From: Clostridia bacterium
GTDB lineage: Bacteria > Bacillota > Clostridia > Oscillospirales > CAG-272
DNA: 64,000 bases
Assembly: GCA_017387685.1 (NCBI GenBank)
Contig: JAFOEU010000002.1
Coordinates: 85,974-149,973, forward strand
Direction of reading: 5' to 3'
Under the pieces are notes generated by a model. It was not told the origin of the DNA and searched no databases. It saw nothing but the letters and a program-made list of their open reading frames with translations. The position numbers were made by a program, and so were the translations under genes. Positions 20,317 to 42,185 of the stretch are shown here, in pieces (within the stretch, counting starts at the first letter, position 1; each line of letters opens with the position of its first letter).

Positions 20317-21813
20317 ATGAAAAAGTACGTCAAATTGACAACACTGCTTCTTGTGTTTGCAACAATGCTTTCTCTCTTTGCAGCATGCGCTAACACCGGC
20401 GGCGAAGACACTACAGCTCCCTCTGGCGCTCAGACTCAGGCTCCTACCGAGTCGGGTGAAGTAACCGAGGAAGTAACTCTTTACGTTCCCGACGATCTTA
20501 ATGAAACCTACAACTTCGGCGAAACCATTACCTTCTTCATTTGGGATGACTGGCGCATGATGGAGTTCTACTCCGACGAGACCGGCGACCTTATCGACGA
20601 CGCTATCTATCACCGTAACATCGCTGTTACCGAGAGACTCGGCGTTGAGTTCGCATGGGTTGAGGCTCCCGGCGACTCCGGCGACTACTCCTCTTGGCTT
20701 ACTCAGGCTGAAAACGACTGGGCTGCAGATAACGAGTACGATATCTACGCAGGCTACAGCCGTACCATCCCGCTCCTTACCATCAGAGGTATGGCAGCAA
20801 ACCTTCTCCAGCAGGAAGCTTTCAACGTAGAAAAGCCCTGGTGGCCTGAGGCTCTTACCACCGAGTGCACCATCAATGACAGACTTTATTTCTGTACCGG
20901 TGATATCGCAACCAGTATGCTTTGGTACATGGTAGCATTTATGTACAACAAGGATCTCTATGAGGCTCACATTCTTGATAAGAATGGCGGCAAGACTCCT
21001 ATGGATATGGTAGATGAGGATAACTGGACCCTCGAGTCCTTCCTTAACCTCGTTCAGGATATCTACATAGATGCAGATAACAACGGTCAGAAGGATATTA
21101 CCGACTTCTACGGTTCTACTATCTACTCCACCGACATTACCGCATTCATGATCGGTGCAGGCATCACCTCCTTCGAAAAGGCAGAGGATGGCAGCCTCCG
21201 TATCTCCGAGAAGTGGAACAGCCAGCGTTGCGCAGATATCTGTGAGACCGTTGGTAACGCAATGAAGCTTACCGGTATCCTCTGTAACGATGACAGAACC
21301 ACCTTCCGTACTCAGCAGTCCATCTTCCACATGGACCGTGTATTCAACATCCCCGGTACCGATACCGGTGGCGAAGGTCTTGACTTCACCGTTGGCGTAG
21401 TTCCCGTACCTAAGTTCGATAAGTCTCAGCAGGAATATAAGACCAACCTCGGTAACCCCTACACCATGTACGCTATCAATGCACAGTCCAAGGAAATGGA
21501 AGCAACCGCTACCACTCTTGAGGCTATGGCATCTCAGAACTACCGCGCTGTAACTCCCGTTGTATTCGAGGTTGCAATGAAGGTAAGATATACCGATGAC
21601 TCTCAGGTTGCAGGTATGTTCGATATCCTTAAGGAAAACGTTTCCTTCGACGTTGGACAGCTTTACTACTACGCAACCGAAAAGCTCCCTGCAAAGGTAT
21701 TCAGCGATACTTGTCTCTCCGGTAACCCCGCAGGATTCCTCTCCGCACTCAAGAGAAGTGAAAGAGTTATCAACAACAAGATCAAGGATATTATGAAGGG
21801 CTACACCGACTAA
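20317..21813 (+). CDS. Solute-binding-like lipoprotein, paralog 3
   Basis: 498 residues from ATG 20317, which has an ACGGAGG site; an earlier ATG at 20287 lacks one. Lipobox FAAC, Cys24. Family blocks are all present (TITFFIWDDWRMMEFYSDETGD, split by me here as ITFFIWDD and FYSDETGD; DIYAGYSR; PWWPEALTTEC; LYFCTGDIATSM). The loop DADNNGQKDITDF again looks like a calcium-binding loop. Its wobble bases favour C/T-ending codons strongly, as expected for a highly expressed gene. Own promoter and terminator. Confidence 0.8.
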   Translation: MKKYVKLTTLLLVFATMLSLFAACANTGGEDTTAPSGAQTQAPTESGEVTEEVTLYVPDDLNETYNFGETITFFIWDDWRMMEFYSDETGDLIDDAIYHRNIAVTERLGVEFAWVEAPGDSGDYSSWLTQAENDWAADNEYDIYAGYSRTIPLLTIRGMAANLLQQEAFNVEKPWWPEALTTECTINDRLYFCTGDIATSMLWYMVAFMYNKDLYEAHILDKNGGKTPMDMVDEDNWTLESFLNLVQDIYIDADNNGQKDITDFYGSTIYSTDITAFMIGAGITSFEKAEDGSLRISEKWNSQRCADICETVGNAMKLTGILCNDDRTTFRTQQSIFHMDRVFNIPGTDTGGEGLDFTVGVVPVPKFDKSQQEYKTNLGNPYTMYAINAQSKEMEATATTLEAMASQNYRAVTPVVFEVAMKVRYTDDSQVAGMFDILKENVSFDVGQLYYYATEKLPAKVFSDTCLSGNPAGFLSALKRSERVINNKIKDIMKGYTD

Positions 21814-29397: not shown

Positions 29398-29430
29398 TAA
29401 AATCTCCTCTTTCAAAAATAATACCGTATT

Positions 29431-29459
29431 ATTATACTATATTTGCGTGCATTTTTCAA
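29431..29459 (-). promoter_or_regulatory. Promoter of the phospho-sugar mutase gene
   Basis: Minus-strand TTGAAA (29454-29459) and TATAAT (29431-29436), 17-base spacer. Confidence 0.75.
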
Positions 29460-29540
29460 GTCCTGACAAGTAAAAAAGCAGAGTTTTCATCGCGGAAAGG
29501 GACAAAAGGAGAGAAATTTTGATAAAAACTGGAACTTGTA

Positions 29541-29569
29541 TTGACTTTTAATAAAATATGGTGTATAAT
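29541..29569 (+). promoter_or_regulatory. Promoter of the 29.6-kb structured RNA
   Basis: TTGACT (29541-29546) and TATAAT (29564-29569), 17-base spacer. The expected start, six or seven bases downstream, coincides with the first base of the RNA's closing stem at 29576. Confidence 0.85.
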
Positions 29570-29575
29570 GAAGAA

Positions 29576-29800
29576 GCCAAACTAACTTAATAAACGTGAA
29601 CGAATGGGTGTACTATCTTTATTTATGGGGATAGGTAGACTCTTTTTTGGGTATACTTTCATTTGTCGATGAATTTGATAAAATGCAAATTCCTCTTACG
29701 GCAAATGAATGTATACTGCACTCATAATTCACGTAAAGTTAGTTTGGCGACTATCGGAGTTTGCGTTTTTGTGCGTCTGCTTCGGTAGGCGCACTTTTTA
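29576..29800 (+). ncRNA. Structured non-coding RNA of about 225 nt, class not certain
   Basis: No plausible gene lies here, but strong long-range pairing does. A 13-bp perfect closing stem joins 29576-29588 to 29736-29748; ACGTGAA/TTCACGT and a 9-bp helix with two G-U pairs (about 29604-29612 with 29717-29725) continue it. Inside are a small hairpin CTATC/GATAG (29613-29634), a 14-of-15-bp stem 29651-29665 with 29702-29716, and an apical hairpin GAATTTG/CAAATTC. After the closing stem, CTATC at 29751-29755 could pair alternatively with GATAG, as in a pseudoknot. It ends in a perfect terminator. The size, architecture and Clostridia context fit the raiA-motif class best, with 6S RNA as another option; I cannot confirm either without a covariance search. 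No raiA gene follows. Confidence 0.75.
29771..29800 (+). terminator. Terminator of the structured RNA
   Basis: GTGCGTCTGC and GTAGGCGCAC pair around a TTCG tetraloop, followed by TTTTTATTTTAT. Confidence 0.9.
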
Positions 29801-29828
29801 TTTTATATTTTTTAAGGAGGTTATCGTT

Positions 29829-30443
29829 ATGTATGATAACATTGGTGGAAAAATCAAAGGTTTAGCGAAAGCAACTTTTTTTGTGGAAGCAATTAGTGCA
29901 ATAATTGTAGGTATCATTTGGATGTCAGAAACCGATGTGGATAATATCGGTGCTTGGTGTTTGATAATTTTTGGACCGTATATTGCTTGGAGTTCAAGTT
30001 GGGTTTTGTATGGTTTCGGGGAATTGATTGTAAGGTCGTGTGATACGAACCAAAAGGTAATTGATATTGCTAAACTTGTTTGCGAAAATAAAAAAACAAA
30101 TAACAATATTGATGCCAACATTGAAGTTATTGCGTACTGGATTAAAGATCAACCTTCCGTGTTTGATGAGAATGAAGAGCAAAAAACTCAAGGACAGCAA
30201 GTAGAGGAGAAAGAGAAAGCGCAACCGCAAGCTCAAAGTGCGCCTACAATAAAAACTATTGTTAAACCTGAAAAGTCCTTTAAGGAAAAATTAACATATT
30301 CACTGAAATATCAGACCGTTGATGGAATGATTAGTTACTTAAGTGAAATAGATGATATAAGAGTAAAAATGATTTTGAAAGGGCCGATAGAATTGGTTAG
30401 ATCAAAAATAATCGATTTGTTGAATTCATTACAAGACGAATAA
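29829..30443 (+). CDS. Two-helix membrane protein with cytoplasmic tail, unknown function
   Basis: 204 residues; ATG 29829 has a near-perfect AAGGAGG site. Two hydrophobic helices (about 15-32 and 42-60) are followed by a long soluble part with a Gln/Glu/Lys-rich stretch (about 115-140) and a C-terminal helical segment (SYLSEIDDIRVKMILKGPIEL). It is clearly AT-richer than its neighbours, with many AAA, ATT and GAT codons, which suggests recent acquisition or low expression. It lies 29 bases after the structured RNA's terminator and may be reached only by read-through. No family recognised. Confidence 0.75.
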   Translation: MYDNIGGKIKGLAKATFFVEAISAIIVGIIWMSETDVDNIGAWCLIIFGPYIAWSSSWVLYGFGELIVRSCDTNQKVIDIAKLVCENKKTNNNIDANIEVIAYWIKDQPSVFDENEEQKTQGQQVEEKEKAQPQAQSAPTIKTIVKPEKSFKEKLTYSLKYQTVDGMISYLSEIDDIRVKMILKGPIELVRSKIIDLLNSLQDE

Positions 30444-30475
30444 GGAAGCCTCCCTGTGCGGGAGGCTTCCTTAAT
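30442..30475. terminator. Terminator between convergent genes
   Basis: AAGGAAGCCTCCC pairs perfectly with GGGAGGCTTCCTT, loop TGTGC. It serves the membrane protein and, on the other strand, the kinase gene. Confidence 0.85.
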
Positions 30476-30507
30476 TTTGGAATCAAGATTTGTCATTTAA
30501 TCAGTAT

Positions 30508-35041: not shown

Positions 35042-35971
35042 TTACCAATGTTTATCTTCATAGGGCGTGTTTTCAACACCATTTTTTTCGAGTTTCTTAA
35101 CCATCCGGTCAAGTGTACCTTTCCACATTTTCTTAAACCATGTGGTGTTTCCAAACCATTTTACGAGCGTAGGGCTAATTGCATAATATGTGCGAATGAA
35201 AGCGCGTCCATACCAAGTTGAACCCAGAGTATTATCGCGGAAGCGGCGAAGCGTCCAAACTTCAGGACAGTCGTATGAACCATAAACGCAAGTTGCTACA
35301 TAGCAGCCATTTGATCGCTTCCTTTGTGGAATATATGATGGATGCTGTTGTGTTTCCGATGGAGTAATAGTTGTAACTTGCGGTTTTTTTTCGCTTTGCG
35401 AGAAATGATGAACACGCGCTATCGGTAACGAAGATATAGTTTCATTGATTTTTGTCTTTATGTAAGCACCGTTAACCCCGTAAGAAGTCCAAAATTTTAC
35501 GACAGGAATACCAGCTTCATCACAAATGTTTTTAACCTTTTCGTCGCGTTCTTTTCGATCTGAATTTAGATGGGTTTGGTCGTTAATTTCTATTACGATT
35601 AGCGGTTTGAAATTTTCGTCGGTTATTAAGAAATCTATGTTCCTGAATAATTCGTTATGAAACGGCGAATCATCGTTTTTGATAATAAAAGAAGCTAAGT
35701 TAACTTGCGGGAATACATGATAACCCGTTGGTAATGAATTTACGATAGACTTGAAATATTCCTGTTCAGAACGACTAATAAGAACATTTTTGGATTCGTA
35801 AACGAAATCACGACCATTGTTATTAGGATTGGGAAAAATGCATGGAGCAACTATTGAATGCCAATTGCCGCATTTGTTGCACTTAACTATCTCGCCCTTT
35901 TCTTTTTTGATATTACACGCGCGGCATAATGGATATTTCCCGCTTTCTGCACCGCAAACCTTGCATTTCAT
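35042..35971 (-). CDS. Zinc-ribbon, DUF2726 nuclease-like and CFI-box C-terminal protein
   Basis: 309 residues from ATG 35971, which has AGGAGAG upstream. Residues 3-44 hold two Cys pairs that look like zinc ribbons (Cys3, 6, 16, 19 and Cys31, 34, 44). Residues about 60-185 match the DUF2726 fold, related to restriction-endonuclease-like PD-(D/E)XK enzymes, with Asp113 and Glu128 in NIDFLITDE and VIEIND. Residues 221-275 match the CFI-box C-terminal motif (CYVATCVYGSYDCPEVWTLR, then RFRDNTLG and GRAFIRTYYAISP). The gene is AT-rich compared with its neighbours, alone, and lies between direct repeats, suggesting transfer. Nucleic-acid cleavage or DNA handling is inferred only. Confidence 0.75.
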   Translation of the reverse strand: MKCKVCGAESGKYPLCRACNIKKEKGEIVKCNKCGNWHSIVAPCIFPNPNNNGRDFVYESKNVLISRSEQEYFKSIVNSLPTGYHVFPQVNLASFIIKNDDSPFHNELFRNIDFLITDENFKPLIVIEINDQTHLNSDRKERDEKVKNICDEAGIPVVKFWTSYGVNGAYIKTKINETISSLPIARVHHFSQSEKKPQVTTITPSETQQHPSYIPQRKRSNGCYVATCVYGSYDCPEVWTLRRFRDNTLGSTWYGRAFIRTYYAISPTLVKWFGNTTWFKKMWKGTLDRMVKKLEKNGVENTPYEDKHW

Positions 35972-41964: not shown

Positions 41965-42185
41965 TATGAATATGAAAACGCTGTGATGCGGAGTAGTAGA
42001 GCGCGTATTATTTCAGAGAGCGGACGGTTGGTGCGAGTCCGTATAAGAAGCCATCGAAGTCGCCGCGGAGCGGTCGGAGTGAAGAGAAGTAGCCCCGAAC
42101 GGTTTATCCCCGAGATAGGATATAAGAGAGCGCGCTTCGGCGCGAATACAGGTGGTACCGCGCGCAAGCGTCCTGTTTTTTGGGA
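41965..42185 (+). promoter_or_regulatory. T-box leader controlling valS
   Basis: A tRNA-sensing leader of about 220 bases. Stem I carries the distal AGAGAGCGG and GGTTGGTGCGAGTCC blocks (42014-42039); the T-box sequence AGGTGGTACCGCG lies at 42150-42162, where it would pair with the CCA end of uncharged tRNA. The specifier is best placed at GTC (42059-42061), a valine codon, in agreement with the downstream gene. Uncharged tRNA-Val should stabilise the antiterminator and allow valS expression. Confidence 0.92.
42148..42181 (+). terminator. T-box terminator
   Basis: ACAGG pairs with CCTGT across the T-box sequence, followed by TTTTTT; it competes with the antiterminator. Confidence 0.75.

Follow-up and report, generated by a model that had tools for sequence, protein, structure and literature searches.

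A candidate family of clostridial leader RNAs with overlapping pseudoknot, antiterminator and terminator helices

Introduction

The window analysed here is a 64,000-nt stretch of DNA from a Clostridia bacterium. Close to position 29600, a preliminary description had placed a free-standing structured RNA, likened to the raiA motif and possibly of a new class. The locus raises two questions, namely to which kind of RNA the element belongs, and whether it acts on its own or in cis on the gene that follows it. The results below support an RNA that is structured and conserved and that has a promoter and a terminator of its own.

Promoter and extent of the leader

The promoter is read directly from the sequence (29541–29569, + strand). 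Its hexamers TTGACT (−35, 29541–29546) and TATAAT (−10, 29564–29569) are separated by a 17-nt spacer, in line with the consensus-like promoter described before. G29576, the first base of the closing stem P1, lies 7 nt downstream of the −10 hexamer and is the presumed transcript start, with RNA polymerase beginning at about 29576. The extent of the leader RNA, from this putative start to the T-run of the terminator (29576–29799, +), is backed by a covariance model and by the folding energy. The model scores the leader at 151.3 bits over 29576–29777, the window itself being among the model's sequences. The 230 nt from 29574 to 29803 fold at −84.2 kcal/mol, compared with a mean of −47.35 (sd 3.71) for 200 dinucleotide shuffles, none of which reaches the native energy (0/200; z −9.93). 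The rod of paired segments noticed earlier is present, and the fold is far stronger than that of shuffled sequence.

Upstream sequence of 45 nt was present for 116 leader copies. A −10 hexamer with five or six of six matches was found in 96 of these, compared with 45 of 116 for shuffled upstream sequence, and the hexamer ends 6 nt ahead of the GCC in 77. The optimal −35 hexamer is located at spacer 17 in 94/116 copies (spacers 16 to 18 were tried) and has five or six of six matches in 52/116. The promoters of the family are regular in layout.

Distribution of the family

Of 59 genomes searched at the DNA level, the own genome included, 18 gave a match, in several cases more than one. From 26 of the 30 loci of this search, 23 sequences were drawn, with L015, L018 and L025 omitted as truncated or oddly bounded. 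This set was assembled from sequences resembling the window, with no motif pattern imposed, and was used to build the covariance model, in which P1 alone is paired. At E ≤ 1e-4, the model matches 69 of 245 genomes of the order and 62 of 291 of the class (own genome counted in both), and none of the 397 other genomes in a phylum-wide sample (1/398 being the own genome). The own genome contains at least four copies, on contigs C7 and C18 (the window) and twice on C48. As these searches score few candidates per genome (10 for the order, 9 for the class and 6 for the phylum-wide sample), copy numbers are lower bounds.

A DNA pattern for the 3' element matches at least 118 stretches of named genome contigs. 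Among the 80 titles listed, 75 name MAGs of Clostridia, Clostridiales, Oscillospiraceae or Ruminococcaceae, often with an animal gut as source, while the other five are titled Ruminococcus, Christensenella, Roseburia, Bacillota bacterium and Candidatus Protoclostridium gallicola. Two viral contigs match the pattern as well. The 118 full-length copies used below (window included) were obtained with the covariance model from 97 of 116 and 21 of 27 matches, leaving out 15 and 6 opposite-strand echoes and four cut-off matches; L152 and L153, two near-identical phage contigs, are both counted. The agreement of this total with the number of pattern hits is a coincidence. Because the search pattern behind this set prescribes a large part of the 3' strand, some of the conservation there is due to how the copies were selected. 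A shorter subtype comprises 14 further copies with a simpler rod and a like P1, apical A-tract, 3' element and terminator (helices assigned by eye).

Fold of the leader

P1 pairs 29576–29588 with 29736–29748 (both +) in a perfect 13-bp stem starting at G29576, as the preliminary description had it. The covariation in homologues that it proposed to look for is present, since 8 of the 13 pairs change on both sides among the 23 sequences with pairing kept. When P1 and the pseudoknot described below are considered together in these sequences, 97.5% of the cells are paired (90.9% in shuffles) and 12 of 28 pairs show both-side changes. The corresponding covariation score is 0.268, compared with 0.139 in shuffles and at most 0.074 in slid registers. 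RNAalifold, unaided, proposed little beyond P1.

P1 is followed by an unpaired AAUA (29589–29592, +), a candidate tertiary contact or sensor, and AATA is found inside nucleotides 11 to 22 of the RNA in 95/118 copies. The variable rod (29594–29734, +) is predicted by the MFE fold to contain the helices 29594–29600/29728–29734, 29604–29611/29718–29725, 29650–29656/29711–29717 and 29658–29668/29699–29709. The previously described CTATC/GATAG hairpin is present in the MFE fold as the P3 side hairpin (29613–29634) and is followed by a U run at 29643–29648 (together 29613–29648, +). A run of at least five T between nucleotide 46 and the apical motif is found in 84/118 copies. At the tip of the rod, the MFE fold contains an apical hairpin, GAAUUUG/CAAAUUC (29671–29692, +), which competes with the pseudoknot.

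Pseudoknot, antiterminator and terminator

The pseudoknot is formed by the apical strand AAAAUGCAAAUUCC (29680–29693, +) and by GGAGUUUGCGUUUU (29756–29769, +), directly 3' of P1, and measures 14 bp in the window. Neither this helix nor the antiterminator was part of the preliminary description. In the 23 sequences, the 15-column helix is 97.6% paired, with 4 of 15 pairs changing on both sides. In the 118 copies, which contain 44 distinct strand combinations, 96.1% is paired, compared with 33–63% in slid registers. Exchange of partners lowers this value to 95.4% only (2/1000 exchanges are at least as well paired as the copies themselves), owing to a 3' strand that is nearly invariant and partly fixed by the search pattern. 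A fully stacked rod may hold the apical strand too distant from the 3' tail; formation of the pseudoknot therefore probably requires a bend at the P3 junction or a partial opening of the rod. A triple helix of U-run and A-tract that would stabilise the pseudoknot is an idea only.

The antiterminator is a helix of 10 bp between CUAUCGGAGU (29751–29760, +), which overlaps the 3' strand of the pseudoknot, and GCUUCGGUAG (29779–29788, +), which lies within the terminator hairpin. It is contained in the MFE structure of the window, while the centroid shows the terminator instead. Covariation of both strands was analysed in an alignment of the window and 71 of the 97 distinct 3' regions (71 distinct rows). 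These were chosen from 80 regions, of which nine were omitted, four of them with irregular terminators (L111, L065, L066 and L114). The helix is 98.0% paired, with both-side changes at 5 of 10 positions and a score of 0.296, compared with 0.193 in shuffles (0/500 as high) and at most 0.078 in slid registers. A second set of 37 distinct rows, consisting of the nine omitted rows, the window and 28 others chosen for diversity, is 97.3% paired with both-side changes in 4 of 10 pairs (score 0.355 versus 0.225). The count of pair types is unexceptional (60/500 shuffles for 71 rows, 121/500 for 37 rows), and the earliest test, on 14 sequences, gave a moderate result (8/500 shuffles). When the three copies cut off at contig ends are set aside, 89 of 115 copies pair at all 10 positions, 23 at nine and three at eight. 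The mean over 110 distinct combinations is 9.75 pairs, compared with 9.17 after tails were exchanged (sd 0.05; highest of 1000, 9.32).

The TTCG-loop terminator noted earlier is present as a 10-bp hairpin with a UUCG loop (29771–29794, +) and a T-run at 29795–29799. It is 98.9% paired with both-side changes in 6 of 10 pairs, a count made without L111, L065, L066 and L114. It follows directly from the sequence that GGAGU is common to pseudoknot and antiterminator, and that one 3' strand is common to antiterminator and terminator; this strand therefore stays complementary to two different partners. The preliminary description had proposed 29751–29755 as an alternative partner of the GATAG hairpin, which did not hold up, as an exact complement upstream of the apical motif occurs in 8/118 copies. 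The conserved partner of 29751–29755 is the terminator strand instead.

Proposed switching mechanism

Comparison of the copies establishes the three predicted helices, their overlap and the position of the leader before an ORF. As in attenuators, an intrinsic terminator lies between promoter and ORF, and a conserved alternative helix excludes this terminator; as in riboswitches, a conserved fold is joined to an expression platform. The leader very probably represents a new family of cis-acting transcription attenuators, that is, an orphan riboswitch-like leader with putative switching.

In the proposed mechanism, P1, the variable rod and the conserved apical segment would fold first as a sensor domain, whose sensing part would consist of P1, the AAUA after P1 and the apical segment. 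Two conserved structures would then vie for the same nucleotides. In the OFF state, the apical strand would take GGAGUUUGCGUUUU just 3' of P1, leaving the antiterminator CUAUCGGAGU:GCUUCGGUAG incomplete, so that the terminator folds and the message ends. In the ON state, without the pseudoknot, the antiterminator would open the terminator and the downstream gene would be transcribed. The direction of the switch, with the pseudoknot as OFF state, is our inference; a default of read-through fits best. Median energies over 114 copies are −17.4 kcal/mol for the antiterminator, −14.1 for the terminator, −16.8 for the pseudoknot duplex and −4.4 for the apical hairpin, and the antiterminator is stabler than the terminator in 102/114 copies. 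In the window, the rod with the antiterminator reaches −84.5 kcal/mol, with the terminator −83.0, and pseudoknot plus terminator −93.3 kcal/mol, any pseudoknot penalty not yet included. The switch is energetically balanced. A leader-peptide mechanism was considered and rejected, as an SD-ATG arrangement, by the criterion applied here, occurs inside only 5/118 leaders.

The balance between pseudoknot and antiterminator would be set by a cellular signal. As a first guess, given about an even chance, a small molecule would act as this signal, binding at the junction of the pseudoknot with P1 and the AAUA. Large size, conservation and a pseudoknot give the fold a likeness to metabolite aptamers, which speaks against the main competing view. 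In that view, the attenuator works as described but responds to a protein, to another RNA or to the kinetics of transcription. We place this view appreciably below even. It is favoured by U runs and a conserved apical loop that could be targets of a protein or an RNA, and by controlled genes that have no evident shared pathway. The latter point also weighs against a new attenuator family as such, since the genes controlled by most metabolite riboswitches share a pathway.

The diversity of the controlled genes was assessed on 76 of 77 closed ORFs of 45–700 aa located at most 120 nt from a leader, that of L153 being omitted. The 76 proteins contain 39 Pfam families, of which BspA-type repeats (7) and zinc ribbons (4) are the commonest, followed by AMP-binding, MazE-type and SLOG-type (two each). 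Many further proteins look, by eye, like lipoproteins. A family of small Cys-rich proteins (...FECCCDECDY...) recurs behind the leaders L008, L014, L017, L042, L054 and L065.

With regard to its architecture, the leader resembles terminating riboswitches and leader attenuators in having a folded domain in a 5' leader, an overlapping antiterminator and intrinsic terminator, and an adjacent RBS. It differs from them in the absence of an Rfam match, the apical-loop pseudoknot as an anti-antiterminator, genes without a common pathway and a ligand that is putative. Since every base pair of the proposed three-way switch is specified, the leader is ready for termination assays and ligand screens.

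Possible mobility of the unit

The sequences around the leader are mostly unrelated. Of 547 pairs of leaders aligned over at least 150 nt, 5 have similar DNA downstream and 4 upstream. ORFs were called behind both leaders in 463 of these pairs, and 23 of the 463 encode similar downstream proteins. Among the 42 of these 463 whose leaders are at least 85% identical, 3 do so, one of which consists of the near-identical phage contigs. Judged by eye in 12 pairs, similarity in most extends from the GCC, promoter hexamers included, to just beyond the T-run; exceptions are L064/L141, which are also similar upstream, and L079/L095, which remain similar into the start of the ORF.

In the window, the unit of promoter, leader and gene lies within 29508–30498 (+), these limits being the ends of alignments to congeners in which the stretch is missing. 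In two of 12 congeners, G004 and G009, the genes flanking the unit are adjacent and the alignments end 59–76 nt apart, too short for the unit. It was seen at the same place in none of the 12 congeners, among which only these two could be judged; both a gain in the lineage of the window and repeated loss are possible.

Leaders also occur in phages. On phage contig L152, which encodes portal and major head genes, a leader and an ORF of 101 aa are located on the strand that the head genes do not use. The phage record MT835503.1, marked unverified, matches over 52 bases of the query and appears by eye to contain a whole leader, followed by an ORF resembling those of L134 and L139; an EcoRI-type methylase occurs once among the 76 scanned proteins, a set that includes the protein of L134. 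A search of 72,556 plasmid records gave no match at E 1e-5. Phage morons are independent promoter-gene units set between other genes. The units described here are alike in organisation, with one copy so placed in a phage contig, and differ in carrying a conserved switch-like RNA in front of the gene.

The mostly unrelated flanks and the absence of the whole unit from two congeners would also suit a mobile-element terminator exapted upstream of genes, with no sensing of a signal. Naville and Gautheret (2010, PMC2965389) describe such mobile attenuators as terminators of IS or prophages, and similar terminator-bearing leaders ahead of unrelated genes are indeed the shared trait. The leader differs from them in its own promoter, covarying antiterminator and pseudoknot, and the covariation of the latter two suggests selection on switching. 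In addition, no IS source was seen, and an unsystematic look noticed no transposase or element ends with the leader. An origin of this kind without sensing is considered unlikely.

Within the attenuator reading preferred here, the leader may tentatively be regarded, at a little under an even chance, as a new riboswitch class, or as an RNA that senses a single global signal, and that provides single-gene accessory units with a shared, portable control head. If so, promoter-leader-gene units would be gained and lost between core genes and would turn up in phages, and one switch would time many unrelated accessory genes, from those for surface proteins to phage-borne ones. The family may illustrate the repeated use of a single regulatory RNA as a portable part. 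Since no evident pathway connects the genes it heads, it may also lead to a global signal that governs accessory genes in uncultured bacteria and their phages.

Two kinds of rearrangement were observed at the 3' end of leaders. An inserted sequence, TCTTGATGTCCCATA..., breaks the terminator at its CTTC loop in three genomes (L004, L018 and L151), and an ORF of 123 aa, possibly for a transposon protein, comes after it in L004 and L018. About 60–100 nt behind the leaders L006 and L030, an apparent inverted remnant of the 3' element of another leader, TAGTCGCCAA..., was recognised by eye.

The downstream gene and cis action

In the window, the terminator is followed by a ribosome-binding site AAGGAGG (29814–29820, +) and the controlled ORF of 204 aa (29829–30443, +). 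A Pfam scan of its product gave no match at E 0.1, and the N-terminal part looks membrane-embedded by eye. A hairpin, GGAAGCCTCCC/GGGAGGCTTCC (30444–30470), closes the unit.

This arrangement recurs in the family. An ORF with an RBS starts at most 120 nt behind the T-run in 101/118 copies and farther away in six; six have none, and in five the contig ends or the T-run is unrecognised. Expressed per leader with readable sequence behind the T-run, the count is 101/113, compared with 22/115 in the control direction (outward from the promoter on the opposite strand, with the same loose ORF/RBS criterion) and 9/113 in shuffled downstream sequence. The corresponding counts for a limit of 40 nt are 79/113, 3/115 and 3/113. 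The median gap between T-run and ORF is 24 nt (107 copies with an ORF). The excess over the control direction (101/118 versus 22/115) indicates a cis-acting leader, and the free-standing RNA of the preliminary description is not upheld.

A trans-acting small RNA, with the next gene as a chance neighbour or expressed by leak-through, would account for the presence of a promoter and a terminator, for a compact terminated transcript of about 224 nt and for the six copies without a clear ORF. Against it stand the same-direction ORFs (101/113 within 120 nt and 79 within 40 nt, versus 22/115 in the control), the scant space left for a second promoter, and the conserved antiterminator inside the terminator, which makes sense if read-through is regulated. 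This reading is regarded as improbable.

The cis-acting leader has no fixed partner gene. Relatives of the 204-aa protein are present in 16/147 genomes, own included; at the 17 loci of these relatives, a leader match (E ≤ 0.01) was found only at the own locus (151.3 bits) and at one other (35.2 bits, E 1e-5), with a covariance model that is weak for the short subtype.

Relation to known RNA classes

A cmscan search with all of Rfam 15 returned nothing for the region above gathering thresholds. When the limit was relaxed to E 10, nine matches were obtained over 29400–29900, the best with E 0.12 and all far below their cut-offs; they are to implausible families, among them a CRISPR repeat, a snoRNA and microRNAs, and none is to raiA, 6S or T-box. 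6S (RF00013) is not among the matches at either threshold. The scan itself works, as it detects a T-box (41974–42178) and a tRNA in the same window. The raiA model (RF03072), which is absent even at E up to 10, matches neither the own genome nor any of 14 control genomes, so that absence is not proven. The suggested likeness to the raiA motif finds no support. No Rfam 15 family reaches its gathering cut-off, and the results as a whole speak for the alternative of a new class. Membership in a known large class such as 6S, raiA motif, T-box or another Rfam family, which the rod shape with its side hairpin (recalling 6S) and the clostridial host might suggest, is very improbable given the nine far-below-cut-off matches as the only ones, the T-box detected elsewhere by a working scan and a separate 6S-like candidate on contig C55. 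A relation beyond the reach of the Rfam models is possible.

T-box leaders measure about 200 nt, choose between terminator and antiterminator, and carry a UGGN bulge in the antiterminator. The present leader resembles T-box (RF00230) in length and in this choice and differs in the absence of a T-box match and, by eye, of a UGGN bulge. Like the raiA motif, also named ModT, it is a structured RNA from clostridia, comparable in size and equipped with a promoter of its own and with pseudoknot pairing. PMC11706538 reports comFC and raiA as frequent neighbours of this motif at variable orientation and distance; here, by contrast, the model does not match and the ORF mostly follows close behind the terminator in the same direction. 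The leader would represent an RNA family that is new but belongs to a known kind, the attenuating leaders, and that is unusual in its pseudoknot switch and gene set. A large, well-supported family outside Rfam 15, with well over a hundred clostridial copies and many of them from the gut, is uncommon. A literature search covering titles and starts of abstracts found no paper describing the leader; it may figure, without a name, in a list of candidates like that of PMC8040213.

A retron-like RNA was considered as well and rejected, as no reverse transcriptase was recognised among the ORF translations of the 24–36 kb region (by eye, with three proteins Pfam-scanned). A DUF2726 protein is encoded at 35045–35968 (−). 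The T-box leader of the window (41974–42178, +) scores 125.1 bits against a cut-off of 93. A probable 6S RNA is located in the own genome (G000) on contig C55 at 20733–20954 (L001), with 45.7 bits against a cut-off of 46.4. Finally, tandem leaders about 320 nt apart, both with terminators, were observed in L042 (2160–2678) and in L160 (two copies).
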